Source: a virus. Taken from it: a stretch of 23,261 nt of DNA. The position numbers and the translations under genes are program-made. Shown here piece after piece: positions 15 through 22,300 of this stretch. The notes beneath the pieces were generated by a model that did no database searches, was not told where the DNA came from, and saw nothing but the letters and a program-made list of their open reading frames with translations. The stretch is from IMG/VR virus record IMGVR_UViG_3300017613_002319, positions 1 to 23,261 of that record; one strand, given 5' to 3'. The first letter of the stretch is position 1. Every line of letters begins with the position of its first letter.

Positions 15-422
15 ATGAGAATACTTAATTTAGTTTTATTTATACTTTTACTTTGTTCTAATGTTTGTTTTGGGGCAGGATCTGCGGCTATAAATAGTGA
101 TCAAGTTATTATAGTTACAGGAGTAGTGGCTGATGGGGATGACTATGATGTATTTGCTGATACTGATGTGGTAGCAGTATTAAGTTCAGCGGTTATATCT
201 TATGTAACTTGGAGTGGTGGAGATATTGCAGCTACAAATTTATGTGAAGTTCATGATGCTAGTGGGAATGTCCTTATTCCTATTTTTACTAGTGTGGATG
301 GGGATGAAGCGTTTAGTACTCCATATTTAGGCTTAATAGGTAAATCTGGATCTTTCTTAATTAACCAGATGGATCATGGTATTATGCACATATTTCTTGA
401 GAGAGTTCTTAGTCATCCATAA
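15..422 (+). CDS. Secreted small beta-rich phage protein, function unknown
   Basis: A 135-residue ORF starting at ATG 15 with GGAGG at 6-10, close to ideal spacing. Residues 1-21 look like a signal peptide: Arg2, a hydrophobic run LNLVLFILLLC, then CFGA with likely cleavage after Ala21. The remainder alternates hydrophobic and polar residues with many Gly, Asp, Val and Ser, consistent with a beta-sandwich. It resembles in style the small beta proteins found among phage structural genes, but I recognise no family. The Cys at residue 14 lies inside the hydrophobic core, so a lipoprotein is unlikely. It sits at the head of a lysis-like block and its TAA stop directly abuts a 23-bp palindromic element. 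The ORF is well supported; the function is not. Confidence 0.75.
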   Translation: MRILNLVLFILLLCSNVCFGAGSAAINSDQVIIVTGVVADGDDYDVFADTDVVAVLSSAVISYVTWSGGDIAATNLCEVHDASGNVLIPIFTSVDGDEAFSTPYLGLIGKSGSFLINQMDHGIMHIFLERVLSHP

Positions 423-1053: not shown

Positions 1054-1228
1054 GTATATCATTAGAGATCTCTTACTTGGTATGCCTGTAGATGAAAATA
1101 TTATTAAGGTGTTAGATTATAACTTTGGGTATTATGATGACAACTTGGTTCAAAAAAGGAGTAAGAGGAAAGTTACATCCTATAGCTCAGAAGGGCTTCG
1201 GGCGGTTGGAGAGGCTCTACTCGAGTAA
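1037..1228 (+). CDS. Small hypothetical phage protein (63 aa)
   Basis: The frame is open from ATG 986, but ATG 1037 is the more likely start: AGGGA at 1025-1029 is well spaced and the overlap with the upstream gene falls to 17 bases. The product begins MRMAYRYIIRDLLLGM and has a basic middle (QKRSKRK). No family is recognised. Its 3' end overlaps the M15-like peptidase frame by about 95 bases, so it may be a short leader-like gene in a coupled overlapping string. It might also be a non-functional shadow of the next reading frame, hence the moderate confidence. Confidence 0.4.
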   Translation: MRMAYRYIIRDLLLGMPVDENIIKVLDYNFGYYDDNLVQKRSKRKVTSYSSEGLRAVGEALLE

Positions 1229-1424
1229 GGGCCTAGATTATAAATGCACATCAATAGAGGAGGGTAATCATGGACCTGGTACATTTCACGAACTTGGATT
1301 GGCTTGGGACGCACAAGGACAAGGAGTCGCTATCGACGATATTAGGGGGGCTCTTGGGGAAGGTTTTCAAGTCTTTCATAGTAATGCTGGTGCTATCCAT
1401 CACGAGTATGACATATGGGGCTGA
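1134..1424 (+). CDS. Peptidase M15-like metallopeptidase, putative endolysin
   Basis: A 96-residue single-domain protein. The M15 (D-Ala-D-Ala carboxypeptidase / VanY-like) signature is visible: HGPGTFHELGLAWD at residues 46-59, where His52 and Asp59 fit the first two zinc ligands. IDDIRGALGEGFQVF follows, then AIHHEYD where His89 fits the third ligand, near Glu91. Short phage members of this fold cleave peptidoglycan stem peptides, so a lysis role is the natural inference. There is no signal peptide, so export would need a holin, possibly the membrane protein at 453. The frame is closed by TAG at 1113, so the start must be TTG 1125, ATG 1134 or ATG 1137. None has a strong Shine-Dalgarno, suggesting coupling to the upstream gene. 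It ends in TGA and overlaps neighbours on both sides. Confidence 0.65.
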   Translation: MMTTWFKKGVRGKLHPIAQKGFGRLERLYSSKGLDYKCTSIEEGNHGPGTFHELGLAWDAQGQGVAIDDIRGALGEGFQVFHSNAGAIHHEYDIWG

Positions 1425-1743
1425 TCTTACTTTTGAGGTAGATCATCCAACACCTCAGATAGTAGATGGGTATCATATTTATGTAGTATTACAATCTGAT
1501 GAATATGGTGTTGGAGTACCTATGCTTGGTGAAGATGGACAAACTCCTGGCAGTATGACTCATCTTGAAACTATTGCTCCTACAGAATGGACGATTTATA
1601 AGGCTGTTGCTACTGCATGGAATATACAAGGAACAAGTGGATATTCACCAGAATTATTGTTTGCTGTTGGACCTAGACCTATGGATATGATTATTATAGA
1701 TGGTCCTCCTGGTGCACCTGGTTTAGCAATTAGATGCCAATAG
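1270..1743 (+). CDS. Secreted or anchored protein with fibronectin type III-like domain
   Basis: The C-terminal 110 residues look like one fibronectin III-type beta sandwich: VDGYHIYVVLQ early, then YKAVATAWNIQGTSGYS near the end, the familiar last strands of that fold. It ends in a Gly/Pro-rich tail (DGPPGAPG). Before it lies a signal-peptide-like stretch, FIVMLVLSITSMTYGA. The start is ambiguous. ATG 1270 has a very strong GAGGAGGG at 1257-1264 but adds a 37-residue cytosolic stretch. TTG 1354, with G-rich 1344-1350 just upstream, would give a textbook signal peptide (GKVFKSFIV...). Either way the gene overlaps the M15 peptidase by 71 to 155 bases in another frame. Adhesion to host or carbohydrate surfaces is a guess. 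The frame is real, judging by the domain; function is open. Confidence 0.6.
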   Translation: MDLVHFTNLDWLGTHKDKESLSTILGGLLGKVFKSFIVMLVLSITSMTYGADLTFEVDHPTPQIVDGYHIYVVLQSDEYGVGVPMLGEDGQTPGSMTHLETIAPTEWTIYKAVATAWNIQGTSGYSPELLFAVGPRPMDMIIIDGPPGAPGLAIRCQ

Positions 1744-1753
1744 GAGATAATAT

Positions 1754-2194
1754 ATGGAAATATCTAATGCTAAGTTAGTATATGAGAAGGGATATAAGTA
1801 TCAAATAGTTGAGGATTTTAAGGTACAACTACCTCTTACTATAGAGAAGGATATTGAGATACCTTTTGCCTCCTTGAGTAAAGATGGTCTCCTTTGGTTA
1901 AAACCTGGCTTTGCCTATGATGGAGCTTCTGGGCCTACCAAGGATAGTAAGGCTAATATGAGGGGATCAGGTATTCATGATGCTCTCTATAAAATGATGA
2001 GGTTAGAACTCTTATCATTAAAGTGGAGACCTTTGGCGGATAAACTCCTTAAGGAATATTGTATAGCTGACACTAAGAAAGGATATAAGTGGGCAGCTAG
2101 GATAAGGTATAAAGCTTGGGAATGGAGTGTAGGAAAGTTTGCTCGTAAGAGTGCTACTTATGAAGGTAAGAGAAAGAGGTATATAGCACCATGA
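1754..2194 (+). CDS. DUF1353-like phage protein
   Basis: A 146-residue protein starting at ATG 1754 with AGGAG at 1742-1746. The features typical of DUF1353 proteins are present: a beta-rich N-terminal part, then GFAYDGASGP at residues 52-61, IHDALYKMM at 74-82 and a basic, tryptophan-rich helical C-terminus. DUF1353 proteins are common in tailed phages; their biochemical function is not established as far as I know. The gene lies directly before the large terminase and its stop overlaps that start as ATGA, so it is almost certainly co-translated with it. The assignment is by motif recognition only. Confidence 0.65.
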   Translation: MEISNAKLVYEKGYKYQIVEDFKVQLPLTIEKDIEIPFASLSKDGLLWLKPGFAYDGASGPTKDSKANMRGSGIHDALYKMMRLELLSLKWRPLADKLLKEYCIADTKKGYKWAARIRYKAWEWSVGKFARKSATYEGKRKRYIAP

Positions 2195-3690
2195 GTTATG
2201 TAGAAGATCCTGGAATTATAGAACCTAATTCACCAGAAGTAAAAGATATACTTTACAATTGCTATGGGGATATAAAGTACTTTTCTAGTACTATATTTCC
2301 GGATAGGTTTTATAATCCTTTCTCTGAAATGAGTAAGCTTATCTTTAATATATTGGATAGGGATGATATACAAAAGGCGGCTATTGCGGCTCCTAGAGGT
2401 TGGGGTAAGACTAGTACTGTTAACTTCTCTTTCCCAGCCTCTAATATACTCTTAAGAAAGAAGAAGTTTATTGTACCTATTTCTAATACTGCTACTCAAG
2501 CAGTAATGCAGAGTGAGAACCTTAAAAATGAACTCCTAAATAATGTTATGGTGAAATCAGTATTTGGGAATATGAAAAGTGATAGATTCTCTCAAGAGAG
2601 CTGGATTACAAGTAGTGGAACTATGGTACTCCCTAGGGGTAGTGGTCAGCAGGTAAGGGGTATTCTCTATGGTAATGAGAGGCCTGATCTCATTATTGGA
2701 GATGATATGGAGGATGCTGAGGAGGTAAAGAGTGAGGAACAAAGAGCTAAGAAGAAAGAGTGGTTCTTTGCTGATGTTTGTAATTCTATTAATAGGAGTA
2801 GGAAGGATTGGAAAATAGTTGTGGTAGGTACCATTCTTCATGAGGATTCTCTCCTCCAAAATCTCTTGGATGATCCTGATTGGTATAGTGTAAGACTTGA
2901 GCTTTGTGATGATAATTATGTTAGTAATTGGCCTGACTATATGGATGATGAGGAAGTTAAAAAGCTTGCTGAGTCTTATGCAGCTAGGGGTCAGTTAGAT
3001 GTATTCTATCGGGAATATAGGAATATGCCTATATCTACTGAGGATGCTACGTTTAGGCAAGATTACTTTAAGTACTATGAAGAGAGTGATCTAGCTATAT
3101 CTGATGCTCGAATTGAGAATATGGTTATAGTTGATCCAGCCAAAACGGTTAAGTTACATAGTGCTGAAAGTGCTGTTATCGGGATAGGAGTGGATACAGT
3201 TGCTAACAAAATATATATAAGGGATTTAGTAGCACAGAAGCTCTATCCCGATCAGCTTTATGAAGCTATCTTTGCTATGTGCCTAAAATTAAATGCTAGG
3301 GTGCTTGGAGTGGAAGTAACCTCCCTAAATGAGTTCATTACTTACCCTATCAAGAATGAGATGATAAAGAGAAGAATGATGGGGTTAGAGTTTGTTGAGC
3401 TAAAAGCGAGGGATAAGAAAGAGAAGAGAATCGCACAGATGGTTCCTTTTTATAGGATGGGAAATGTCTACCATAACAGGGCGTGTTGTGGTCCGCTCGA
3501 AGCCCAACTACTTTCTTTCCCTCGCTCTGCTCGATTTGACTGTATGGATGCTGAGGCATACTTTGTACCAATGTTAGAGAGTGGACTTAGGTATTTTGAT
3601 CCTACGGATGAAGAGATGGAGAATGAGTTCCTAGATCTTGAGGATGAGGATTATGATGAGCCTCCCATGCAAGATTGGAGGGTAGCCTAA
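2191..3690 (+). CDS. terL: Terminase large subunit
   Basis: A 499-residue packaging motor. The ATPase half has an adenine/Walker A region APRGWGKTST with Lys73, and Walker B LIIGDD with Asp171-Asp172 followed by Glu174. The C-terminal RNase H-like nuclease shows MVIVDP with Asp315, LGVEVT with Glu375, and FDCMDAEAY with Asp450 and Asp453. These are the expected acidic residues for DNA cleavage. Length and domain order are normal. The protein would dock on the portal and translocate DNA into the prohead. The start at ATG 2191 overlaps the upstream stop, with AGAGG at 2175-2179. A small CpG-rich patch at about 3480-3540 stands out from the otherwise CpG-poor gene and encodes the stretch before the last nuclease acids. 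No recognisable small terminase lies in the window. Confidence 0.93.
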   Translation: MSYVEDPGIIEPNSPEVKDILYNCYGDIKYFSSTIFPDRFYNPFSEMSKLIFNILDRDDIQKAAIAAPRGWGKTSTVNFSFPASNILLRKKKFIVPISNTATQAVMQSENLKNELLNNVMVKSVFGNMKSDRFSQESWITSSGTMVLPRGSGQQVRGILYGNERPDLIIGDDMEDAEEVKSEEQRAKKKEWFFADVCNSINRSRKDWKIVVVGTILHEDSLLQNLLDDPDWYSVRLELCDDNYVSNWPDYMDDEEVKKLAESYAARGQLDVFYREYRNMPISTEDATFRQDYFKYYEESDLAISDARIENMVIVDPAKTVKLHSAESAVIGIGVDTVANKIYIRDLVAQKLYPDQLYEAIFAMCLKLNARVLGVEVTSLNEFITYPIKNEMIKRRMMGLEFVELKARDKKEKRIAQMVPFYRMGNVYHNRACCGPLEAQLLSFPRSARFDCMDAEAYFVPMLESGLRYFDPTDEEMENEFLDLEDEDYDEPPMQDWRVA

Positions 3691-5042
3691 TGGCACAGAA
3701 GATGTATTATGTAGGTTCTCATGGACCTTTTTACTATGATGATAGTGATGTGTATAATGATGCACATCCTCTCATTAATCACCAGGGGATATATACTGAG
3801 GGGAAAATGAGGGCTGATGGGGCTCCTACTAATGATGAAGATGTGGTAAGGCTTGAGGATGTGAACTCTAGACTTATTTCCCCTATTCCAGTAGTTGATA
3901 TAGATGATCCATCAGCAGAACTTGTTCTTTATGGAGGCGATGCTGGGTCAGTTATAGTATGTTATGAGGTAGAGGCTGATGCTAATCAGATTACAGTCTA
4001 TGAATGGGATAGTGCTTGTGCAGCTGGAATTAATATTCCTTATGTTGTAGCAGGCTCTAGTGGGTTTTGGATTGCTGTGGCTGGTAAGTATACTAACTCA
4101 GAAGTTAAATTAGGGAATGATCTTACTATAGGAAATGGTGCTACTGGAGTTGATTATAAGCTTACTTTCGATGGAGAGACTAATGATGGTATTATAGAAT
4201 GGATGGAAGATGAGGATTACTTTAAATTCTCAGATGATATACTAATGGATGGGGGTACTCAAATATTCTTTCGTGATTCTAATGGTTGGATTTACTCTGG
4301 TGGTGCAAATCTAATTAGTATAGTTGTGCAGGATTTACAACTTTATTCTAATGCTATAGACTTAGGAAGGAATGGAGTTGATGCTGATACTATTTTAAAA
4401 TTTATGTCTAGTACTAATGATGGTGTAGTAACATGGAAAAATACTGAGGATTACTTACAATTTTCAGATGATATTTTAATAGAGTTAGCTGAAAAGATAT
4501 TTTTTAGAGATACTGCTCTTTCTATTTCTTCAGTAGATGATGGATATATAGATTATGATGCTGATACAGGACATAGGTTTTCAGGCCCATCAGTACGTAT
4601 AAATGGTGATCTCTATATAGGTCAAGATGCTGATGCTGATACAGCTATAGTATTTACTGGGGACACGAATGATGGTCAGATAACTTATAAAGAGGATGAG
4701 GATATTTTTGAGATTGGTTCAGGTTTTAGTAATACTCCTGATGAGATAACAGCTACTAGTGATGGAGTAGCTGCATCATTAACTACCATTAATACAGAAG
4801 TAACTACCAATGGGGATGCAGATCTTGATAATGTTACTCTTGCTAATGGTACAAGTGGACAAGTTAAGAATATCTATTGTGTTGTTCTAGGGAATGTTGG
4901 GGATACCTGGAAAATAACTCCAGCTAATATGGTTGGAGGATCTCAAATAACTTTTACTGGGGTAGGACAAGGATGTACTTTAAGTTATGCTGATAATGAA
5001 GGATGGGTAGTTACTGGTAATAATGGTGGGACGATTACATAA
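3690..5042 (+). CDS. Tail fibre or appendage protein with three imperfect repeats
   Basis: The start is ATG 3690, sharing its A with the terminase TAA stop (TAATG), with GGAGGG at 3677-3682. This gives 450 residues. Three copies of a beta motif occur at about residues 162, 241 and 325 (roughly 80 residues apart): TNDG, then a short strand, then a DED/TED acidic turn and FSDDI or a related strand, followed in the first two copies by an IFFRD strand. The C-terminal 90 residues (about 4770-5039) form a knob-like domain with GNVGDTWKITP and ITFTGVGQGCTLSY. This combination is typical of phage fibre or appendage proteins and rich in Asp, Gly and Thr. It probably trimerises on the virion; receptor binding is an inference. 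Confidence 0.65.
   Translation: MAQKMYYVGSHGPFYYDDSDVYNDAHPLINHQGIYTEGKMRADGAPTNDEDVVRLEDVNSRLISPIPVVDIDDPSAELVLYGGDAGSVIVCYEVEADANQITVYEWDSACAAGINIPYVVAGSSGFWIAVAGKYTNSEVKLGNDLTIGNGATGVDYKLTFDGETNDGIIEWMEDEDYFKFSDDILMDGGTQIFFRDSNGWIYSGGANLISIVVQDLQLYSNAIDLGRNGVDADTILKFMSSTNDGVVTWKNTEDYLQFSDDILIELAEKIFFRDTALSISSVDDGYIDYDADTGHRFSGPSVRINGDLYIGQDADADTAIVFTGDTNDGQITYKEDEDIFEIGSGFSNTPDEITATSDGVAASLTTINTEVTTNGDADLDNVTLANGTSGQVKNIYCVVLGNVGDTWKITPANMVGGSQITFTGVGQGCTLSYADNEGWVVTGNNGGTIT
4125..4750 (+). repeat. Three in-frame beta-repeat units within the appendage gene
   Basis: Protein-level repeats inside the appendage gene. Unit 1 is centred near 4180, unit 2 near 4415 and unit 3 near 4670. Each carries a TNDG turn and an acidic turn; the spacing is about 240-250 bases. 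The DNA itself has diverged, so this is an old internal duplication, not a recent one. Boundaries are approximate. Confidence 0.55.
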
Positions 5043-5065
5043 CTCTGTTCAAAAAATGAACATAG
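5043..5065 (+). repeat. 23-bp palindromic element, copy 2
   Basis: CTCTGTTC, spacer AAAAAAT, then GAACATAG. It follows immediately after the TAA stop of the appendage gene. The outer bases are CTCTG...CATAG, the reverse of the CTATG...CAGAG form, so its arms are in the orientation opposite to copies 3-6. The following AGGAGAGG supplies the Shine-Dalgarno for the gene at 5075. Confidence 0.85.
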
Positions 5066-5074
5066 GAGAGGGAT

Positions 5075-7456
5075 ATGGAAGGTAAAGTAGGGTTAACTTG
5101 GAAGAAAGTAGTTTTGGCATTAGGTATACTATTTACGTTTAGTGGAATTCTTTATGGGGCGAGAACTACTTATATCCCAGATATTACTACAAAGAATTTA
5201 ACTACTGCAACCCTTACAGCTAATACAGCTGATATAAGTGGAGGTACTATTGTAGCTAGTACTGGTACTTTTACTTATGCCACTATTGGTACGTTAGCTG
5301 TGAATACTATGACTGGGTCTGAATATACTGTTGGAGATATAGTTGCAGATACAATAACTGCAGATGTAGCTACTATAAGTACTAATGTACTTAATCATGC
5401 TACTGTTACAACTTTAGTTGCTCCTAATATTACCTATGGCCCTGAATCTGTAATTAAGAAAGTGTACTTTCCTGACACAGATGAATCTGATCATAGTCTT
5501 AGTGGGACATCTGGAACTATTGCTTGGATTAATGCTATATTAGCAGCCAGTGGTAGTCAAGGAACAATAGAGTTACCCGCAGATATAGTTTATGCCTTTG
5601 CAGATGATACTACTTTTGGAGTTGAGGTAAATCTTAGAATTAATCCTGGGGCTCTTATTACTCCAGCTAGTGGTAAGACAGTTACTATATATAGTGTAGA
5701 TGCTGGAAATTATCAGATATTTGATACAAGCTTAGGTGGGGAGATTATATTAGGTAGTAATGTACCTTGGAATGTAGCTTGGTGGGGGGGAGATGCAGAT
5801 GCTGTGATTGAAATTTCGGAAACTATTTCAGATAATACTATTAACAATGCTTATGTATATTTTCCTCCAGGTGAATACACGCTTGAAGCTACGGAGACAC
5901 ATCCTGGTGGGCTAGGTACCTCGGGCTGTGTGTTTAATGGAGTTTCTGGACTAACGATTGATTTTAGCCGAGCTACAGTTAAACAAACATCGGTTAGTGC
6001 AAATACACCTATGGGTGGGGTGTTTGTTTTATATGCTTGTACAGATGCTAATGTCTTGTGTGGGTTCTATGATGGAATATGTACTGGCCCTCCTTGGCTA
6101 GATGAAACTAATACTATGGTTCAAATATGTGGGGCTTGTGATGGGGTTACTGTTACAGGAGGAGTAGTGAATGGGGGTGATTCTTTATGTAGGGTAATAT
6201 CATCTGATGCAACTAGGACAGGAGATAAACCTAAAAATTGTCATGTGCAGGGAATTGTTAAAGATACTCAATATGGAATTATATATAGATATAATGATAA
6301 GGGGCAAACTTTTGATTTAATATTTGATGATTTACTTAGGGGTATATTTGTTTCAGGAGGTGGAGAAGGAATAACTGGAAATATTACAGGCTATAATTTT
6401 GTGGGTGGGACAGCTGTTGTTCTTGGAGTAGAAGATAATGATTATGCAAGAGATATTAATATTAATATGAATGTAGATCACGGGTTAGTTGGTTTTAGGA
6501 TAACTGCTGGTACTGGTAATACAGTCGGATATACAGTAGAAAATGTTAGAATATCTGGTATTGCAAAGGTCAATGATGCTACGGGTGAAGTCATGGACAT
6601 AATTGATACGGCTCATTCTAGCACAGTTATTCGCAACATTGATATGTCAGACCTAAATGGTGTTGTAGGGGCTACTGCTACAAGGGGAGTAATAATAGAT
6701 CCTGACGATGCCTGTACTATAGAAAATATTCAACTGCCAAGTATTTATAGTGATGGCATAGAACATGGAATTCTACTTAATAATAGTAGTGATGCGTCTA
6801 TAAATAATATTAAGGGACCTAGGTATTCAATAGTTAATACCATAGGTGCAGTTCATTCTCTTTATATGCATAATGGAGCTTTTTCTAATGTAAATCTTTC
6901 TGGAAGTTACTTATATGCACCAAATACCACTTCCTCACAAGATGTAGTAGTTCATGAGTGTGCTGGATTAAATATTACAGGAATGATAACTGAAGATGTT
7001 ACAAATTTTAAATATAGTACTGATATTCAGCTGGGTGGTGGAAAGGGTATGGGAACATATGATTTTACTACCCATGGGGTTATAGATACAGGAGATGATT
7101 ATGTTTTAGGATATATTCCTAGTTATGCCACCGTGACTAGAGTATATTATGAGGTTACTAAAACATTTACCTCATCAGGAGATGCTGCTGAGTTAGGTAT
7201 TGGAATCACTTCGGATGATGTAGAGGGAATAGTTCCTGGAAAGCAAATCCTACATGCAGATAATATATGGGATGATGCAAATACGTTAGTAGATAGTTCA
7301 AATGGAGATGTAATTCAGGATGGTACTTTAACAAATGCTTGCGATCCTACCACAGCTATAAGATCTATAGTATTACATAATGTTGTGGGGGGAGAGGATT
7401 TGACTGAGGGTGCTATTACAGTCATGTGGGAATATGTTGAGACTGGAGTTTATTAA
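5075..7456 (+). CDS. Beta-helix tail spike-like protein with N-terminal signal peptide
   Basis: A 793-residue protein starting at ATG 5075, with AGGAGAGG upstream. Residues 1-29 resemble a signal peptide: WKK, then VVLALGILFTFSGI, then LYGA with likely cleavage after Ala29. A Thr/Ala/Ile-rich stretch of short degenerate repeats follows (about 30-110). Next comes a right-handed beta-helix-like body beginning around YVYFPPGEYTL (about residue 260), a pectate-lyase-fold style motif of tail spikes. The last 110 residues form a separate beta module (YATVTRVYYEVTKTFTSSG ...), a type seen at the ends of other phage appendage proteins. Such spikes bind or degrade surface glycans; no catalytic triad is identified. 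A signal peptide on a virion appendage is unexpected, so membrane anchoring or secretion of a soluble enzyme are alternatives. Confidence 0.65.
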   Translation: MEGKVGLTWKKVVLALGILFTFSGILYGARTTYIPDITTKNLTTATLTANTADISGGTIVASTGTFTYATIGTLAVNTMTGSEYTVGDIVADTITADVATISTNVLNHATVTTLVAPNITYGPESVIKKVYFPDTDESDHSLSGTSGTIAWINAILAASGSQGTIELPADIVYAFADDTTFGVEVNLRINPGALITPASGKTVTIYSVDAGNYQIFDTSLGGEIILGSNVPWNVAWWGGDADAVIEISETISDNTINNAYVYFPPGEYTLEATETHPGGLGTSGCVFNGVSGLTIDFSRATVKQTSVSANTPMGGVFVLYACTDANVLCGFYDGICTGPPWLDETNTMVQICGACDGVTVTGGVVNGGDSLCRVISSDATRTGDKPKNCHVQGIVKDTQYGIIYRYNDKGQTFDLIFDDLLRGIFVSGGGEGITGNITGYNFVGGTAVVLGVEDNDYARDININMNVDHGLVGFRITAGTGNTVGYTVENVRISGIAKVNDATGEVMDIIDTAHSSTVIRNIDMSDLNGVVGATATRGVIIDPDDACTIENIQLPSIYSDGIEHGILLNNSSDASINNIKGPRYSIVNTIGAVHSLYMHNGAFSNVNLSGSYLYAPNTTSSQDVVVHECAGLNITGMITEDVTNFKYSTDIQLGGGKGMGTYDFTTHGVIDTGDDYVLGYIPSYATVTRVYYEVTKTFTSSGDAAELGIGITSDDVEGIVPGKQILHADNIWDDANTLVDSSNGDVIQDGTLTNACDPTTAIRSIVLHNVVGGEDLTEGAITVMWEYVETGVY

Positions 7457-7462
7457 ATATAA

Positions 7463-7485
7463 CTATGTTCAAAAAATAAACAGAG
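7463..7485 (+). repeat. 23-bp palindromic element, copy 3
   Basis: CTATGTTC, spacer AAAAAAT, then AAACAGAG. One arm base is changed (GAAC to AAAC). It is preceded by TAA, though here that TAA lies a few bases after the gene's own stop. Its terminal AGAG merges into GAGGAG, the Shine-Dalgarno of the portal gene. Confidence 0.85.
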
Positions 7486-7494
7486 GAGCAATGA

Positions 7495-9441
7495 ATGGCA
7501 GCTATCGCGATGGGCAGAAATAGGGGAAAGAGTAAGCCTTCATACACAACTCACTATGATTATGACTATCCTAATGGGCTTAAACTTAGACCTGGAAGTG
7601 AACTCCATGATGATTTGGTTAGTGAGGTAATAGATAGGGCTCAGGATAGTTGGGACCAGATGAGTAAGAGACATCCTCACTGGAGACTCTTGGATAGGAC
7701 TATGACCTCATATATTAGAGAGGATGAGGTAGAGAGACTCTTAAAGGATGAAGATGAGAGGGAACCTATATCTATAGTTATTCCATTTAGCTATGCTACT
7801 CTTGAGACTCTCCTCACATACCAAGTAGCTACATTCTTACAAGATCCTATCTTCCAATATGAGCCTTTTGAGCCTGGAGATACAATAAATGCTATCTTAC
7901 TTGAGAGCCTAGTTAGGCACCAAAGCATATGGGCTAAAATGGGGCTTAATATACATACTATGCTAAGGGATCAACTAATGTATGGCTTTGGGAGTGTTAC
8001 TCCTGGGTGGACGATTGAGAGAGGGTGGAGGACTAGGAAGCAAGCTACTGGGAGTATTAGTGCTCTTACTAATATGTTTAGGAAGACTGGAGAGAATAAG
8101 GTAAGAGAAGAGGCAATCCTTTATGAGGGAGGGGATCTAACCAATATTGATCCTTACTCTTGCTTACCTGATCCTAATGTGAGTATACATGAGGTAAAGA
8201 AGGGGGAGTTCTTTGGGTATATAGATCACACTAATTACCATGAACTCATACAGGATGAAGCTGAGGGAGAGTTTTTTAATGTTAAGTATCTCAAGGATAT
8301 AGATGCTAGAACTTCCCTCTTCACCCCTCAGGATGATAGGGATGTTAAGTATGATATTGATAGAGAGGGTTCCACTTATACTACAAATCCTGTAGATATT
8401 ATACCTATGTATATAAAAATAATTCCTAGTGATTGGGACTTAGGGGATAGTGATTATCCTGAAATTTGGAAGTTTGTGGTAGCTGGGGATACGGTACTTA
8501 TTGGGGCTGAACCTCTAAATATGGATTATAATACTTATCCTATTGTGATAGATGCCCCTGACTTTGATGGGTATAGTATTACTCCCACAAGTAGGATGGA
8601 GATAGTATATGGAATGCAGGATGTACTAAATTGGATGGTTAACTCCCACGTTCTTAATGTAAGAAAAACTATCAACGATATGCTGGTGGTAGATCCCTTC
8701 ATGATTAATATAGCGGATCTTAGAGATCCTGATAAAGCTGGGAAGATTATACGATTACGGAGGGCTGCATGGGGGAGAGGTGTTAAGGATGCTGTCCATC
8801 AGTTACAGGTACAAGATGTAACTAAGCAACACATAAAGGATTCTGGATTCTTGGTCGAGATGATGCAACAAGTGACTGCTGCTGTGGATAGTGTTATGGG
8901 AGTTATGAGAACTAGTGGGGAGCGGAGGAGTGCGACAGAGAGTAGAGGAGCCACTATGGGAGCCTTATCTAGACTTGAGAGAAGTGCTAAGGTAAGCTCC
9001 ATAATGGCTATGCATGATCTCGCATATATGCTTGCTGTCCAAACTCAACAACTTATGTCGGAGGAAAGGTATGTCCAGATTGTCGGAAGGAATCAGGAAA
9101 TACTTCTTAACGAGTACGGAGTGGATAGTACCAGGGTGCCTGTTAGCCCTCTTGATATCTTGGTTGATTTTGACGTTGTGCCTAAGGATGGTTCTAACCC
9201 ACGGCATGTGGATACAGAGTCTATGATCCAGATGTTTCAAGTAATAGCGGCTAATGAAGGACTAGCTCAGAAGTTTGATATGTTTAGGATGTTTGAACAT
9301 ATTGCGAGAGGGAGTGGCGCTACCAATATTCAAGACTTTAGGGCTAAAGGTGGGAGTGTTGGGATAGGTAGTGATCAAGATGTAGAGAGGGAAGCTGGAG
9401 CAGGAAACCTTATTGATATAAAGGAGGCTATGAATGGATGA
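7495..9441 (+). CDS. Portal protein
   Basis: A 648-residue protein. The start is ATG 7495 with GAGGAG seven bases upstream; ATG 7491 is out of frame. Its size, order (after terminase and before scaffold and capsid) and content fit podovirus portals. The N-terminal half contains HPHWRLLDRTM and SYATLETLLTYQVATFL, with a long helical central region about residues 370-520 (DVLNWMVNSHVLNVRKT ... RSATESRGATMGALSRLERSAK). The last part is rich in short helices. Portals form the dodecameric DNA gate at one vertex and bind the terminase during packaging and the adaptor afterwards. The stop overlaps the next start as ATGGATGA, indicating coupled translation. No defect is seen. Confidence 0.88.
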   Translation: MAAIAMGRNRGKSKPSYTTHYDYDYPNGLKLRPGSELHDDLVSEVIDRAQDSWDQMSKRHPHWRLLDRTMTSYIREDEVERLLKDEDEREPISIVIPFSYATLETLLTYQVATFLQDPIFQYEPFEPGDTINAILLESLVRHQSIWAKMGLNIHTMLRDQLMYGFGSVTPGWTIERGWRTRKQATGSISALTNMFRKTGENKVREEAILYEGGDLTNIDPYSCLPDPNVSIHEVKKGEFFGYIDHTNYHELIQDEAEGEFFNVKYLKDIDARTSLFTPQDDRDVKYDIDREGSTYTTNPVDIIPMYIKIIPSDWDLGDSDYPEIWKFVVAGDTVLIGAEPLNMDYNTYPIVIDAPDFDGYSITPTSRMEIVYGMQDVLNWMVNSHVLNVRKTINDMLVVDPFMINIADLRDPDKAGKIIRLRRAAWGRGVKDAVHQLQVQDVTKQHIKDSGFLVEMMQQVTAAVDSVMGVMRTSGERRSATESRGATMGALSRLERSAKVSSIMAMHDLAYMLAVQTQQLMSEERYVQIVGRNQEILLNEYGVDSTRVPVSPLDILVDFDVVPKDGSNPRHVDTESMIQMFQVIAANEGLAQKFDMFRMFEHIARGSGATNIQDFRAKGGSVGIGSDQDVEREAGAGNLIDIKEAMNG

Positions 9442-9697: not shown

Positions 9698-10184
9698 TGC
9701 AACTAAACCGTTAGATAGTGAAATGCTTGATACTTATGCAGGTTATATTAGAGACTTAGCTACACAGGTAAATGCTAATATAACTGCTATAGGTCTCTTA
9801 AGTGCTATCCCTTTATTTAAGGATTTTAATTTAGCTGCTACTGGGGATATAGATACTGATGGGACTGATATTCAAGATGTATTCTTGGAAGTGATTAGAA
9901 TTCAATCTACTGGTGGAAGCTATGATATTCAAAGTATTATTAATGGAAGGGAAGGTATGATTAAGATCTTCTATGTTGCGGAAGATGTTAATACTATAAC
10001 TTTCTTACATGATAGTGGAGCTGGAGCTGGGCAAGGTTCTTTAGGAGATCTTATCCTTAATGGAGAGAATGATCTAGAGGCGGCTCAGCATGATATTATA
10101 GCTTTTGTTAATTTGGATGGAGATGCAGGTGTTAGTGAAGATGGCACCTGGCGGGAACTTTTTAGGAGCTTATGGTATGGATAA
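9687..10184 (+). CDS. Putative virion beta-knob (fibre-type) protein
   Basis: The start is ATG 9687, with GAGGAGG at 9674-9680, giving 165 residues; an upstream ATG at 9672 would put the start before that site. A helical N-terminus (about 1-40: DSEMLDTYAGYIRDLATQVNANI) is followed by a beta-rich domain with IQSIINGREGMIKIFYVAEDVNTITFLH and ending GTWRELFRSLWYG. This layout, a short helical stalk plus a small beta domain with a glycine-rich turn and a final aromatic strand, resembles trimeric knob domains in phage head or tail fibres. The position inside the head module suggests a head fibre or decoration protein, but no family name can be given with certainty. Confidence 0.6.
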   Translation: MSVDATKPLDSEMLDTYAGYIRDLATQVNANITAIGLLSAIPLFKDFNLAATGDIDTDGTDIQDVFLEVIRIQSTGGSYDIQSIINGREGMIKIFYVAEDVNTITFLHDSGAGAGQGSLGDLILNGENDLEAAQHDIIAFVNLDGDAGVSEDGTWRELFRSLWYG

Positions 10185-10207
10185 CTATGGTTAAAAATTA
10201 AACAGAG
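10185..10207 (+). repeat. 23-bp palindromic element, copy 4 (with compensating change)
   Basis: CTATGGTT, spacer AAAAATT, then AAACAGAG. It abuts the TAA stop of the knob-protein gene. Compared with the consensus GTTC...GAAC, the inner pair C:G is replaced by T:A on both sides, so pairing is kept at that position; a second change (T to G) is uncompensated. Confidence 0.8.
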
Positions 10208-10225
10208 GTAATGAAAGGAGAAGTG

Positions 10226-12303: not shown

Positions 12304-13596
12304 ATGGGTATTTTAGGACTTATTGGAAATGCTGATTGGGCAACTGATGAAAGACCGAAGAATTGGAGAGAGGGTATTCTTAGGTTGTATCCTAATGGGG
12401 ATGCTCCCTTGACAGCTCTTTTGGCGAAGTTGAAAACTAAACCTACTAACGATCCTGAGTTTAACTGGTGGACGAAGGAGATGAGTTCTCAGATCGCAAC
12501 CTTGGTGGCAGATTCTAATGTATATACTGATGTAGCGCTCTCTAGTGCTTATGCTTCTGGTGGTACAGCGGGAGATACTCTCTATACCAAGATGACTCTT
12601 GCTGAGGTTCAGAACTTTAGAGAGGGTCATATTGTAATGTGGAGGTCAACTGGTGAGGAACTTGTAACCTGTGTTGGTAGGGTTACTGGCGTGGTACAGA
12701 ATGGAGCTAGTTCATATGTATCTGCAGCCTTGCTTGAGGATGATGATGCTGGAACGGAGAATATCTCTGATTGTGAGATCCTCCAGATTATAGGTAACGC
12801 TAATGCTGAGGGTGCTGAGATGCCTGATGCGGTGAGTTACCGTCCGACCAAGGTAAGGAATTATACTCAAATCTTTAGGACTCCTTTGAGTATTGCTCGT
12901 ACGGCCAGGAAGACTAACCTTAGGACTGGTGATCAGTATAAAGAACTTAAGAGGGAAGCTCTTGAGATGCACTCTGTGGAAATGGAGAAAGCATTCTTGT
13001 GGGGGATTCCTACTGAGGGTACTGGTGCTAATGGTAAGCCTCTTAGGACTACTTGTGGTCTCATCCCTGCTATATTAGGTAAGGATCTTGAAGGGGATGG
13101 TTCTACTGCGGTTGGTACTACCGCTGACTTTGCGGGTGGTACGTGGCTGACTGGTGGGGAGATCTGGCTTAATGAGCAGCTTGAGGCTATTTTTAGGTAT
13201 GGAAGTGATGAGAGACTTTGCTTTATTGGTTCTGAAGCTCTCTTGGCTATCCAGATCGCGGCAGCTGCTGGAGGAACTGTCCAGCTTAATCCTGGGGCCA
13301 GTGTTTATGGTATTAAGGTTATGGAGTGGATTACTCCTTTTGGGGTTATATATCTCAAACGGCATCCTCTCTTTTCCTATACTGCCATTGATAGGTGTAC
13401 AATGCTCCTGTTTGAGCCTTCTATGCTGGTGGAGAGGCCGATAGATGATACTGCCTTCTACGCTGATAAGAATGAGAAGTCTCGTTCTGGACGTAGGCGT
13501 GTTGATGGTACTGATGAGGAATTCCTGACGGAGTCGGGGCTTGAGTTTCACTTCCCGAAGACGGCTGGATACCTCTTGGGTGTACAAGGTGACTAA
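12304..13596 (+). CDS. Major capsid protein (HK97-like, SU10/DUF5309-type)
   Basis: A 430-residue protein starting at ATG 12304, with TTTTGGAGG at 12287-12295. The N-terminus WREGILRLYPNGDAPLTALLAKLKT resembles the start of the DUF5309/SU10-type major capsid family. The later part has a long-helix-like segment SIARTARKTNLRTGDQYKEL, an A-domain-like stretch and a conserved-looking end (DGTDEEFLTESGLEFHFP). Length, location after the scaffold and decoration genes, and a strong hairpin right after it all fit a highly expressed capsid gene. Base composition differs from neighbours: I count 31 CpG here, against four in the 769 bases at 18601-19369, and more CGN arginine codons. No frameshift product is evident. 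Confidence 0.87.
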   Translation: MGILGLIGNADWATDERPKNWREGILRLYPNGDAPLTALLAKLKTKPTNDPEFNWWTKEMSSQIATLVADSNVYTDVALSSAYASGGTAGDTLYTKMTLAEVQNFREGHIVMWRSTGEELVTCVGRVTGVVQNGASSYVSAALLEDDDAGTENISDCEILQIIGNANAEGAEMPDAVSYRPTKVRNYTQIFRTPLSIARTARKTNLRTGDQYKELKREALEMHSVEMEKAFLWGIPTEGTGANGKPLRTTCGLIPAILGKDLEGDGSTAVGTTADFAGGTWLTGGEIWLNEQLEAIFRYGSDERLCFIGSEALLAIQIAAAAGGTVQLNPGASVYGIKVMEWITPFGVIYLKRHPLFSYTAIDRCTMLLFEPSMLVERPIDDTAFYADKNEKSRSGRRRVDGTDEEFLTESGLEFHFPKTAGYLLGVQGD

Positions 13597-13606
13597 CCTT
13601 TAATAT

Positions 13607-13632
13607 GGGTGGGCCTCTTCGGGGGCTCACCT
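13607..13632 (+). terminator. Strong UUCG-capped hairpin after the capsid gene
   Basis: The 5' arm GGTGGGCCTC (13608-13617) pairs fully with GGGGCTCACC (13622-13631) using two G-U pairs, around the loop TTCG (13618-13621). An extra G-U pair (13607/13632) is possible. A cUUCGg loop is unusually stable. It starts 11 bases after the capsid stop. No T-run follows, so it may be a partial terminator or an RNA-stability or processing hairpin rather than a classical intrinsic terminator. Confidence 0.75.
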
Positions 13633-13653
13633 ATCATCAAAAATTGAACAGAG
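13631..13653 (+). repeat. 23-bp palindromic element, copy 5 (degenerate left arm)
   Basis: CTATCATC, spacer AAAAATT, then GAACAGAG. The right arm is intact and supplies AGAGG for the gene at 13662; the left arm has decayed at two positions (G to C and T to A). Its first base is also the last base of the UUCG hairpin stem, so the two structures abut directly. It is not preceded by TAA, unlike the other intergenic copies. Confidence 0.75.
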
Positions 13654-13661
13654 GTATTTAT

Positions 13662-16617: not shown

Positions 16618-17525
16618 TGGGTGGAAGTGGTGGAGGTGGGAGTAGTGGAAAGGTAGGGTATCCAGCTTACTTAGAAACCTTACATAGTGATGCTTTAAAT
16701 CATGGAGGAGCAGATACTATAACTCACTCCTTATATGATTTATTAGAGATAGCAGATGGAAATAATCCTTACTTGGGGGCTGTAGCTTATGACCCATCAA
16801 GTGAGATGGTAGCCTTGGCAGATGCCTTAGATACTTATGCGGATAAAGTAGATGAATTTGAGCCTTCTACTCTCTGGAGTGCTGGGATAGTATTTGGTAA
16901 GGCAGATCTTGAAACTTATCTATATAGTGATAGTGACTTTAATGATGATGCAGATGCTTTTAGGGATAAGTTAGAGGCTCAACTAACTAGTGATGTACTC
17001 CCAAGGTTCCAAGCTGGAATGAGAGATATTAACTCTGTCATGAGTTCTTCTTTTGTGATAGGTCAGAGTATTCTTGAGGATGGGATAGATAGGGAAGTGG
17101 CGGAACACCTCTCTAAGCTTAGAGTAGCTGGATATATGGATAAGATAGATAAGGTTACTCAATGGGCTGATAGGTTCCTAGGTGCCTCTATTCAAAAGAT
17201 AGAGTTCTATCGTACGGTATCTGCACTTACAGCTGAGATTAATAGGATTAGGCTCTTATTTAAGATGGAGTATGATAAGCAACAACTAGCTTGGGATAAT
17301 GAGTCAGCTACTTGGCAAATTAATCTATTCCAAAATCTAGCCAATCTTATAGCTTCTCCTAGTGGTGGTACTGCTATTTATGATAATAAGGATAGGAAGA
17401 ATAGTCCTTGGGCTGGAGCCTTAAGTGGGGCAGCTAGTGGGGCACAGATTGGATCTAGTATGGGTGGTTATGGAGCTGGAATAGGTGCCTTGGTTGGTGG
17501 AGTTGCTGGATATTTAAGTTCATAA
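16617..17525 (+). CDS. Putative internal virion / DNA ejection protein with glycine zipper
   Basis: A 302-residue protein with ATG 16617 in a TAATG junction and GGAGGG at 16603-16608. It starts with a flexible Gly/Ser stretch. The middle is long and helical (about 120-240: AFRDKLEAQL ... EHLSKLRVAGYMDKIDKVTQWADRFL), a coil-forming part. The last 38 residues are a glycine zipper (GALSGAASGAQIGSSMGGYG and onward), a pattern able to insert in or span membranes. This architecture and the location before the transglycosylase gene fit the ejected internal proteins that form a channel through the envelope. The assignment to a specific T7 or P22 counterpart is not possible from sequence alone. Confidence 0.6.
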   Translation: MGGSGGGGSSGKVGYPAYLETLHSDALNHGGADTITHSLYDLLEIADGNNPYLGAVAYDPSSEMVALADALDTYADKVDEFEPSTLWSAGIVFGKADLETYLYSDSDFNDDADAFRDKLEAQLTSDVLPRFQAGMRDINSVMSSSFVIGQSILEDGIDREVAEHLSKLRVAGYMDKIDKVTQWADRFLGASIQKIEFYRTVSALTAEINRIRLLFKMEYDKQQLAWDNESATWQINLFQNLANLIASPSGGTAIYDNKDRKNSPWAGALSGAASGAQIGSSMGGYGAGIGALVGGVAGYLSS

Positions 17526-17548
17526 CTATGTACAAAAATTGAACAGAG
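17526..17548 (+). repeat. 23-bp palindromic element, copy 6
   Basis: CTATGTAC, spacer AAAAATT, then GAACAGAG. One arm base differs from the consensus (T to A). It follows immediately after the TAA of the preceding gene, and its 3' AGAGG is the Shine-Dalgarno for the gene at 17556. Confidence 0.85.
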
Positions 17549-17555
17549 GTAACGT

Positions 17556-19369: not shown

Positions 19370-22300
19370 TGGGTAGGACTCTTAAGGGATTAGATGAACT
19401 AATGGGAGTGGCTGGACCAGAAGGTCAAGGCTCTAATGTTATCAAAGATATGGTAGGGAATACAGCAGGGAAGTATGGTGTAGATCCTAGACTTGCTGAA
19501 AGTATGGCGAGGACTGAGTCTAACTTTAATCCTGAGGCTGTGTCTAGGGCTGGAGCTCAAGGGGTTATGCAGATTATGCCTGAGACTGGTAAGGATTTAG
19601 GGCTAGAGAATCCTATGGATCCTGCACAAAATATAGATGCAGGTCTTAGGTATTTTGCTAAGCTCCTTAAGAAGTATGATGGTGATGAGGAAATGGCTCT
19701 GGCTGCCTATAATGCTGGGCCTGGGAATGTGGCCAAGTATGGAGGGGTACCTCCTTTTGAGGAGACTCAGAATTATACTAAGAAAGTATTAGGAGGAGTG
19801 GAGGATACCTCTGTTCAAAAAATGAACGAAGAACCAATGGTTCCCTCTGTTCAAAAATTGAACATAGAACCAGAACTTACTCCTCTCATGAAAGCCTTTG
19901 AGTCTTATGGTAGGGGGATGGTTGAGGAGAGTCACTTAAAGGTAGCTGCTGGGGAATCCTTCTTAGCATTAGGTACTGGCATGGCTGCTTTTCCAGTGTC
20001 AGGAATAGTTGGGGCGAGTAAGCTAGCTGAGAAGAGTAGGTTTGAACAATTAGGAGATCTTGAATCTGCTAGAAAGATTGATCCAGTTAAATCCATGCAA
20101 GAGGTGGCTGAACTATTACAATATGAGCCTAAGTATGCTGAAGGTGGAGCTGGGACTGTAGAGGCAGCTATGTATCCCTTTGAGCAACTCCATAGGTTCG
20201 CTACCTGGGGTGGAGATAAGACTTATGAAATGACAGATAATCCATATCTTGCTGGGACTGTTGCTACTGTGATAGAGTTTGGAGCTCTTATGGCAGTAGG
20301 GCCACTTACTAAGGGAGCCATTAAAGGTACAGGTATTGCTGTAGGTAAGGCTAGAGCTAAGTTCCATTCCAAGAATGTTGGGACTAAATTAAGAGAGGCA
20401 GTAGAGACTGGAGATGTTAAAGGTCTTAGTGAGGCTGTGGAGGGGGCTATAGAGGATCTCAAAAAGGTAGATCCTACAATAGAGAATAAGGTTCAAGAGA
20501 ATGTGACTCAGTATGAGAAAGGAATGGAGACTACTGAGGCTATTACTATAGAGCCTCAAGGAAAAGAAGCTGTTAATTTTGGAAAAGGTACTTTTGAATC
20601 TACTCGAAAGCAAGTCAATGATCAGATTAGGGAGAATGTAAAGAGAGATAGATTAGCTAAGGCTGCAGAAAAGGATAAAGTTAAGAGAGCTGAGGAGGGA
20701 TACGAAGGGATAGGTAGAGAAGAGTTCCCTCCTGATGCGCCCAAGAAAACTCTTGCTGATGAGGGAATTTTAACTACACAGGAAAAGATAGAGAGAGGTC
20801 CGAGGACTGAAGCTGAATTAATTAGAGATGCAGAACGTAAGAGGCAAGGGGAGCTTAGAACCTTTGATGAGAGTGCTAAAGTACGGGATGTTCCTGAAAA
20901 GACTATTGCTGAGATAGAAGGGACAGATCTTAAGTCTAAACAAAAGGCTAGGAAGACTAAGGTTAAAAAGAAAGAGGATATTAAGAAGAGTAAGTCTGTA
21001 CTCCTTAAGGAAAAACAGAAGAAGGCTAGAGAGATAGCTGGCAAAGATGATCCTGCTAAGCAGGCTGAGATTAAAGAGATCCAAGATAGGATAGCAGAGT
21101 TAGAGGCTCAGAGGGAAGCTTTGGATAAGACAGTTAAGGTACCTGAAGAAGGTCCACATAAATTAGACTTTCCAGAACAACATATATCAGAAGTTGCAGA
21201 TATAATAGCTAAGAATCCTAGTAACTATAAAGCTACTATTCTAAAGAATAGATTTGGAGCTGCTATTGAGAGAGGTGATGGGCTAGATGTATATAGAGTA
21301 AGAGGTCCTGGACTAAGTGAAAATGGAGTATTTGTTGTAGAGAATGATTTAGGATCTTATGGTATAGGTAAACCTAAATTAAAAAAGGTTAGGAAGAAAG
21401 AACCTACTCAGGCAGATCTAGATAAAGCCTTTGAGAAAGAAGGAGCTATAGGACCTAAAGATTATAAGGGTAGTGAACCTACTGCTCAGTATATAGGAGA
21501 GGGAGATGGAGGTAAGCTATATAAACTTTATAATGTAGAAGGGTACAAGCATGGGACTACTGTACAAGAAGCTACCATTAAAGGTAAAGATCTTAATATG
21601 GTAGATAAGTATGGAGATCCTATTCAAACTAAACAAGAGATGATGGATAGTATAGATAAGTTCTTTAAGGATGATCCTAAGGTAAAAAAGGGACCTAAAA
21701 AAAAAGTAGATAAACCCCTAGATAGAATAAATAAGAGAATGGAGGAGATCTCTAAGGAGTTAGATAAAGACATATCAGAAGCTGACATACCTAAATTTCT
21801 TGAGGAGCTTAGGAGACTTGATGATGAAGCTAGGCTTCTCGAGAAACAATCCGAGTTAGGTGCTGCTGATGAGGCAGCTACTAAGACCCGCCAACTATCC
21901 CAGAAAGAAATAGATGCCAAACAAGCTTATGAGGACACTCTAGAATTCATCACCAAAGATAAATCTGTGGAGATGGAGGGATTAGAGTGGGTTGATGATG
22001 GTGGGAGACCTTCTTATGAGAAAGGTTATGAGGGGAGGATAGATCCTGATACCATATCTAGTGATATTAAGAGTTTGTTAGATTGGTGGGGGGATGAGAG
22101 TGGAAGTGTTACTATTCAATGGGGAGTTAAAAAGAATCAAATAGCTCATGGTACTGATAATGTTAAAAATCTAAGAGGAATTCTAAAGGATGGATTAAGA
22201 GCTGGGAGTCAAATAGGAGCTCAGTCAGATATGTATCCTATACAAATTGTTTATGGTAAGAAAAGAATAGGTGGGAAGGAGGTAACTTATAGACCTGGGG

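Follow-up and report, generated by a model that had tools for sequence, protein, structure and literature searches.

Signal-peptide-like leaders in a phage lineage: a tail-spike-like protein family and several small proteins

The virus record IMGVR_UViG_3300017613_002319 is linear, and a linear record is often a fragment. We refer to the whole stretch of DNA analysed, all 23,261 bases of it, as the window, and we scored 25 of its genes. Its virion-type genes include, on the plus strand, a large terminase subunit (2191..3690; phrog_38, 1.3e-76), an SU10-type portal protein (7495..9441; PF23899, 1e-13) and a major capsid protein (12304..13596), together with further ones. The capsid gene, which has relatives in IMG/VR and owes its label to synteny with related public phages, served as our lineage marker. 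A fibre-like gene without a leader lies at 3690..5042 (+), and its N-terminus is conserved in the lineage (K.YVGS.GPF.YDD by eye). It likely encodes a fibre built in the cytoplasm. A spike-like protein is encoded at 5075..7456 (+). Among the smaller genes, 1754-2194 matches phrog_1158, named a tail assembly chaperone (7.8e-10), while the product of 453-821 has a Cys-containing N-terminus, one hydrophobic segment, a charged tail and a very weak match to Rz-like spanins (E 0.07).

A near-palindromic repeat around TGTTCAAAAAATGAACA recurs at 426-441, 5041-5068, 7461-7488, 10180-10210, 13626-13656 and 17521-17551. It is mostly intergenic, just 5' of a ribosome-binding site, and its long form had three matches versus none in shuffled sequences. 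Its core is found unchanged in several relatives as well, e.g. L048, L064 and L102. The repeat could be a late promoter, an operator or an mRNA hairpin. Two further copies, 36 bases apart at 19805-19867, fall within a 1297-aa ORF, where they encode the similar peptides SVQKMNEEP and SVQKLNIEP.

Relatives were collected with the capsid protein, which gave 14 IMG/VR loci, and with a capsid profile, from which the best 80 of at least 495 relatives were kept. The set of 88 loci drawn from these matches includes the window and contains near-duplicates, e.g. L016/L017, L076/L117, L112/L113 and L115/L116. Relatives of the fibre-like gene, 101 to 830 aa long, were present in 24 of the 88 loci, and none of the 24 carried a leader. 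Among named phages, Desulfofustis phage LS06-2018-MD01 is the closest (43.8% identity for the terminase, 38.1% for the portal). In PMC10370329, where this phage is called MD01, phage names follow the hosts that CRISPR spacers predict; of the spacer links drawn to MD01, one has less than 80% identity. Desulfofustis is a putative host and our sole named lead, taken from the nearest named phage. We rejected a host assignment from six GTDB contigs with capsid matches (L121-L126), whose labels clash (two Bacillota-type, Nanohaloarchaea, Planctomycetota and Dehalococcoidia among them). These contigs, which carry the lineage capsid gene, are probably mis-binned phage contigs.

Leaders were called with a rule of our own (residues at -3/-1, hydrophobic core) and a reconstructed weight matrix; the strict version of the test adds a Shine-Dalgarno match. 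The matrix was checked on three E. coli leaders only, where its cuts fell at the expected sites. The spike-like protein (793 aa) is an ORF with coding-like codon usage. Its first 28 residues (5075..5158, +) form a signal-peptide-like leader, MEGKVGLTWKKVVLALGILFTFSGILYG, followed by ARTT, which passes the rule, has a matrix score of 5.0 and is preceded by a 5-base Shine-Dalgarno match. The cut likely falls between G28 and A29 (LYG-A), as predicted from the sequence. The leader has L at -3 (L-x-G), a weak residue there, and the lowest score of the three window leaders. A helix spans residues 9-28 in a poor, low-confidence single-sequence model (pLDDT 39.9 for the protein). The mature part has 11 Cys. 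We dropped periplasmic disulfides as a general reason for export, since the Cys count ranges from 0 to 18 across large leader-bearing proteins.

Two small proteins also have leaders. The first, g15 (135 aa; 15..422, +), starts with MRILNLVLFILLLCSNVCFG before AGSA (CFG-A, C-x-G; score 8.9) and passes the rule, although the matrix alone puts the cut three residues further on; its mature part is beta-rich by eye. The second, g1354 (129 aa; 1354..1743, +), has a possible fibronectin-III-like mature part. Read from TTG 1354, which follows AGGGGGG, it has a normal leader, MGKVFKSFIVMLVLSITSMTYG, before ADLT (T-x-G; score 7.6). The first-pass annotation had reported a hydrophobic stretch on three proteins, opening this one at ATG 1270. 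The stretch stands for the spike-like protein and g15, whereas from position 1270 it is internal, at about residues 29-50, and both leader tests failed. Furthermore, 1270-1422 lies inside an ORF in another frame (1125..1424, +; 99 aa), which has no Pfam match and which, by motif alone, resembles an M15-type peptidase. Codon usage favours this ORF as far as 1421, with log-likelihoods of +5.3 and +3.0 versus -2.6 and -1.9 for the 1270 frame. The 1270 start is therefore probably wrong, but the start codon of g1354 stays uncertain because ATG 1270 has a strong Shine-Dalgarno match and TTG 1354 no 4-base match to the string used. Neither g15 nor g1354 matched public phage records. For g1354, Pfam fn3 gave no match, and hhalign linked it weakly (60.0) to small leader-bearing proteins from related phages; among five such proteins scanned, one had a sub-threshold fn3 match (0.00065).

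A positive n-region and a hydrophobic core of at least 8 residues are present in the spike-like protein, g15 and g1354 (from TTG 1354). No lipobox (Cys at +1) was flagged in the spike or g15 leader, and the g1354 leader has no Cys. The YGA or FGA site described earlier is indeed common to the leaders, but by the -3/-1 rule the cut comes after G and before A, because a cut after A would leave Y or F at -3. Only two of the 25 window genes, spike and g15, passed automatically, owing to the missing Shine-Dalgarno match at TTG 1354. In the 88-locus set, 37 of 4059 sampled internal pseudo-starts and 49 of 1529 gene N-termini passed. With the internal pseudo-starts as the null, the chance of at least two passes in 25 genes is 0.022, and of at least three 0.0015. 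The rule has false positives: it passed three of 566 core virion or packaging genes, with doubtful start choices, and the beta-helix protein of MW202733, at threshold. It also missed leaders that we recognised by eye in L071 (849 aa), L087 (575 aa), L076/L117 (325 aa) and L144. That the passes are chance hydrophobic stretches is very improbable. A probability of about 0.02 for two passes and the false positives speak for it; against it, the leader is conserved across the spike family described below and lineage genes exceed internal pseudo-starts, an argument that bears less directly on g15 and g1354, for which no relatives were found.

In other contigs of the lineage, signal-peptide-like leaders likewise precede large proteins of beta-helix or fibre-like type as well as small ones, which supports the idea of a shared strategy put forward in the first-pass annotation. 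The leader test with a Shine-Dalgarno match was passed by 46 of the 1529 genes, in 31 of the 88 loci (best 80 of at least 495 relatives), though some of the 46 are short membrane or lipoprotein-like genes or have doubtful starts. Upstream of the portal, 14 of 67 genes of at least 280 residues passed, to which L071, L087 and L076 with its duplicate L117 can be added by eye. Of 20 leader-bearing proteins scanned, three (those of L067, L091 and L106) reached the Pfam cut-off, in each case for Beta_helix. The L067 protein matched both Beta_helix (3.3e-14) and phrog_2234, a PHROG tail spike family (1.3e-17); its one match in public phage records covered 10% of its length. The proteins of L020, L022 and L100 had no useful match in public phage records, and in IMG/VR the L020 protein found only itself. 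Homologous leader-bearing proteins of 170-176 aa are encoded at 3067-3579 in L021, directly 5' of the capsid gene, and at 5736-6266 in L022, between scaffold and capsid with another gene after it.

Three leader-bearing proteins (L090, L100 and L110) share an alignable sequence that begins with the first mature residue, although their leaders differ. A profile search with retrieval motifs in the mature part yielded 19 loci of uncultured phages with 18 distinct sequences (L131 is identical to L130), including the three query contigs L127, L130 and L145. A leader is present at the homologous place in all 19, in 18 by the rule and in L144 by eye, where prolines break the core, and its letters vary. 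Nearly all members have A or S directly before the conserved mature start, judged by eye, and in 13 of 19 the matrix cut falls four residues ahead of a conserved D. As a control we used fibre proteins with the C-terminal module of L064 (80 loci, 67 with an intact 5' end, 48 distinct). With start codons picked to favour a leader in both sets, the strict test was passed by 17 of 19 family members (all except L144 and L133) versus 3 of 67 control fibres, one of the three being L064's own contig (Fisher p 4.5e-13, which ignores relatedness). The premise that phage appendages normally have no leader therefore holds in the one fibre family used as control, where 64 of 67 are without. The lineage capsid gene was found in 10 of 16 family records tested, several of the others being short.

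The spike-like protein of the window shares a module with this family. Its residues 144-273 (5504..5893, +), comprising a beta-helix entry with a WWG motif, match the family profile with an hhalign probability of 95.9 (E 6.3e-9 in a single comparison) and the L020 spike with a probability of 97.2. In a plain HMM search the family HMM did not reach the window protein at E 0.1, whereas L020 was found (3.4e-10). The window protein had no Pfam, PHROG or convincing PDB match, and tblastn found no match in public phage records. A search of 15 related records gave no useful match to it either, and exact peptide motifs from it and the terminase gave no useful match in IMG/VR. Its proposed tie to tail spikes accordingly runs solely through the family module, which itself has tail spike matches. 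The best PDB profile match of the family is the phiAB6 tailspike (E 0.004), and weaker ones include mannuronan epimerases; phrog_7458 (tail spike) was found in 3 of 17 members, PHROG tail spike families thus being seen in a minority. A model of the module (pLDDT 80.2) has many short strands. Beta-helices predominate among the structural matches listed for it, which include pectin methylesterases, mannuronan epimerases and tail spikes; every match has a Z below 8 (best 7.4) and is therefore indicative only. Foldseek returned nothing at E 0.001 or better in PDB (best E 0.13) and a single match in BFVD (E 4e-4), to an uncultured-phage protein from the pectate lyase superfamily. A likeness between the N-terminus of the family and the head-binding domain of P22 was abandoned when a sequence search of PDB, with the mature L132 N-terminus as query, did not support it. 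Pfam detected no lytic domain in the spike-like protein, g15 or g1354, and no enzyme motif was found.

We then looked at the neighbourhood of the family. Of the 19 family loci, 17 have a glycosyltransferase homolog no more than 4 kb upstream, versus 0 of 80 control fibre loci; leaving out the four query-source genomes gives 13 of 15. The exceptions are L138, with none, and L145, with only 239 bases upstream. Pfam glycosyltransferase domains were present in 7 of 10 family neighbours scanned, two of which are fusions. Adjoining the spike gene, 707-3526 of L227 and 2760-4862 of L232 encode proteins that join a B12-binding and a radical SAM domain to a family-2 glycosyltransferase domain. We read eight family contigs, each 44 to 52 kb long (G018, G019, G021, G023, G025, G027, G028 and G030). 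Glycosyltransferase homologs adjoin the spike gene or lie within about 1.3 kb of it in these contigs. The spike gene adjoins or is near the terminase gene; in G028 it is between terminase and portal, and in G021 the two are at opposite contig ends. The family genomes read have a separate leaderless fibre gene before the portal, and G028 also has a leaderless beta-helix protein. In a count over 13 contigs, the glycosyltransferase link held in 9 of 9 versus 0 of 4 (G002, G007, G009 and G014); G013, which that count did not include, also had none. The link holds for L020 too. The window, which starts 15 bases before g15, contains no glycosyltransferase homolog in its 23,261 bases. Extending the link to all leader-bearing proteins of the lineage failed: where a capsid-anchored locus encodes a large leader-bearing protein, a glycosyltransferase homolog was present in 1 case out of 14 (Fisher p 0.41, 88 loci). 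Many of these 14 loci end near the gene, and L100, L110 and L103 have a glycosyltransferase further out (as L127, L130 and L133); L067 and L070, outside the family core, have genes on both sides and no glycosyltransferase homolog.

Our best reading, tentative and given a little under an even chance, is that the family comprises Sec-exported, tail-spike-type, glycan-active proteins that would work with phage glycosyltransferases on the host envelope and off the virion. The three window leaders would be Sec-type signal peptides cut by signal peptidase I. Late in infection, all three proteins would cross the inner membrane of a Gram-negative host, and the spike-like one would fold as a beta-helix of the tail-spike kind. 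Once outside the cytoplasm it may bind or process glycans of the host envelope or exopolysaccharide, alongside glycosyltransferases that the window phage presumably encodes as well. A receptor glycan could thereby be masked or removed during infection, or progeny freed from debris at lysis. Several points weigh against this reading: no enzyme motif was found, the window contains no glycosyltransferase homolog, the glycosyltransferase link is not general outside the family, the window spike has no close relative and a poor model, the fold matches are weak, and in Gram-negative bacteria a protein with a Sec leader alone reaches only the periplasm. Since the lineage keeps a separate leaderless fibre gene, the leader-bearing spike is most simply an extra protein outside the cytoplasm. 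Three options had been offered at the outset; secretion of a glycan-active protein and display on the infected cell fit best with the place of the leader and the family's glycosyltransferases, and membrane-associated assembly fits less well. We rather doubt a bolder version, in which a podovirus-like lineage would have moved its tail-spike-type glycan module off the virion assembly line, so that the exported spike, held by its conserved N-terminal module, and the glycosyltransferases would rewrite or destroy the receptor glycan of the infected cell, as a counterpart of receptor-destroying enzymes.

The best rival, rather doubtful yet credible, is that the spike is exported, cleaved and folded in the periplasm, to be added to finished virions once lysis has brought the compartments together. 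It ranks first because most of the eight family genomes have, by eye, no large spike-like gene other than the leader-bearing one. The family also combines a conserved N-terminal module with variable C-terminal parts, as expected of a receptor-binding protein on a fixed partner, and P22 spikes attach last and in vitro. Against late joining, there is a leaderless fibre gene as well, the glycosyltransferases nearby are left without a direct explanation, and no virion-binding domain was identified in the spike.

We consider it unlikely that these are captured host genes for secreted beta-helix proteins, with the leader a leftover that has no role in the phage. Secreted beta-helix enzymes are common in bacteria, and the weak profile matches to mannuronan epimerases would suit such an origin, but a leader retained in every family member despite differing letters does not; the lineage moreover has leaders on unrelated proteins, and L064 carries one on a fibre module that is mostly leaderless elsewhere. 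Still more unlikely is an uncut hydrophobic segment acting as a membrane anchor, for display at the inner membrane or membrane-associated assembly. The weak score of the window spike, with its L at -3, and a matrix cut off the conserved boundary in 6 of 19 members point that way, and are countered by the A or S before the mature start in nearly all members and by the cut falling there in the other 13.

If Sec export off the virion is correct, phages use a tail-spike-type protein as a secreted tool as well, and metagenome genes filed under 'tail spike' may encode proteins other than virion components. The glycosyltransferases beside the family's spike genes give a testable link to the remodelling of surface glycans.

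Tail spikes are thought of as products of cytoplasmic assembly. The proteins described here are like beta-helix tail spikes such as those of P22, CBA120 (TSP1) and phiAB6 in their predicted beta-helix entry module, variable C-terminal parts, phage gene context and the tail spike matches of relatives. They differ in the conserved leader, in having no recognised virion-binding domain and in the glycosyltransferase genes alongside the family. Serotype-converting phages encode glycosyltransferases too, and in both cases these could alter surface glycans, but in the relatives described here they are neighbours of spike-like genes with leaders. A phage protein passing through the host Sec system has a precedent in endolysins: as described in PMC6116005 and PMC4640515, Lys44 of fOg44 has a typical signal peptide and SAR endolysins are also Sec-exported, whereas the spike-like protein has no lytic domain detected by Pfam. 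Lom of lambda, according to PMC12309495, is an outer-membrane protein with a signal peptide, encoded between spike and fibre genes. It is likewise a signal-peptide gene in the fibre region with a product destined for the host envelope, but Lom is a beta-barrel, whereas here the leader-bearing protein itself is spike-like. Sec-exported phage proteins are already known; of an exported tail-spike-type protein we found no report in the open-licence literature.
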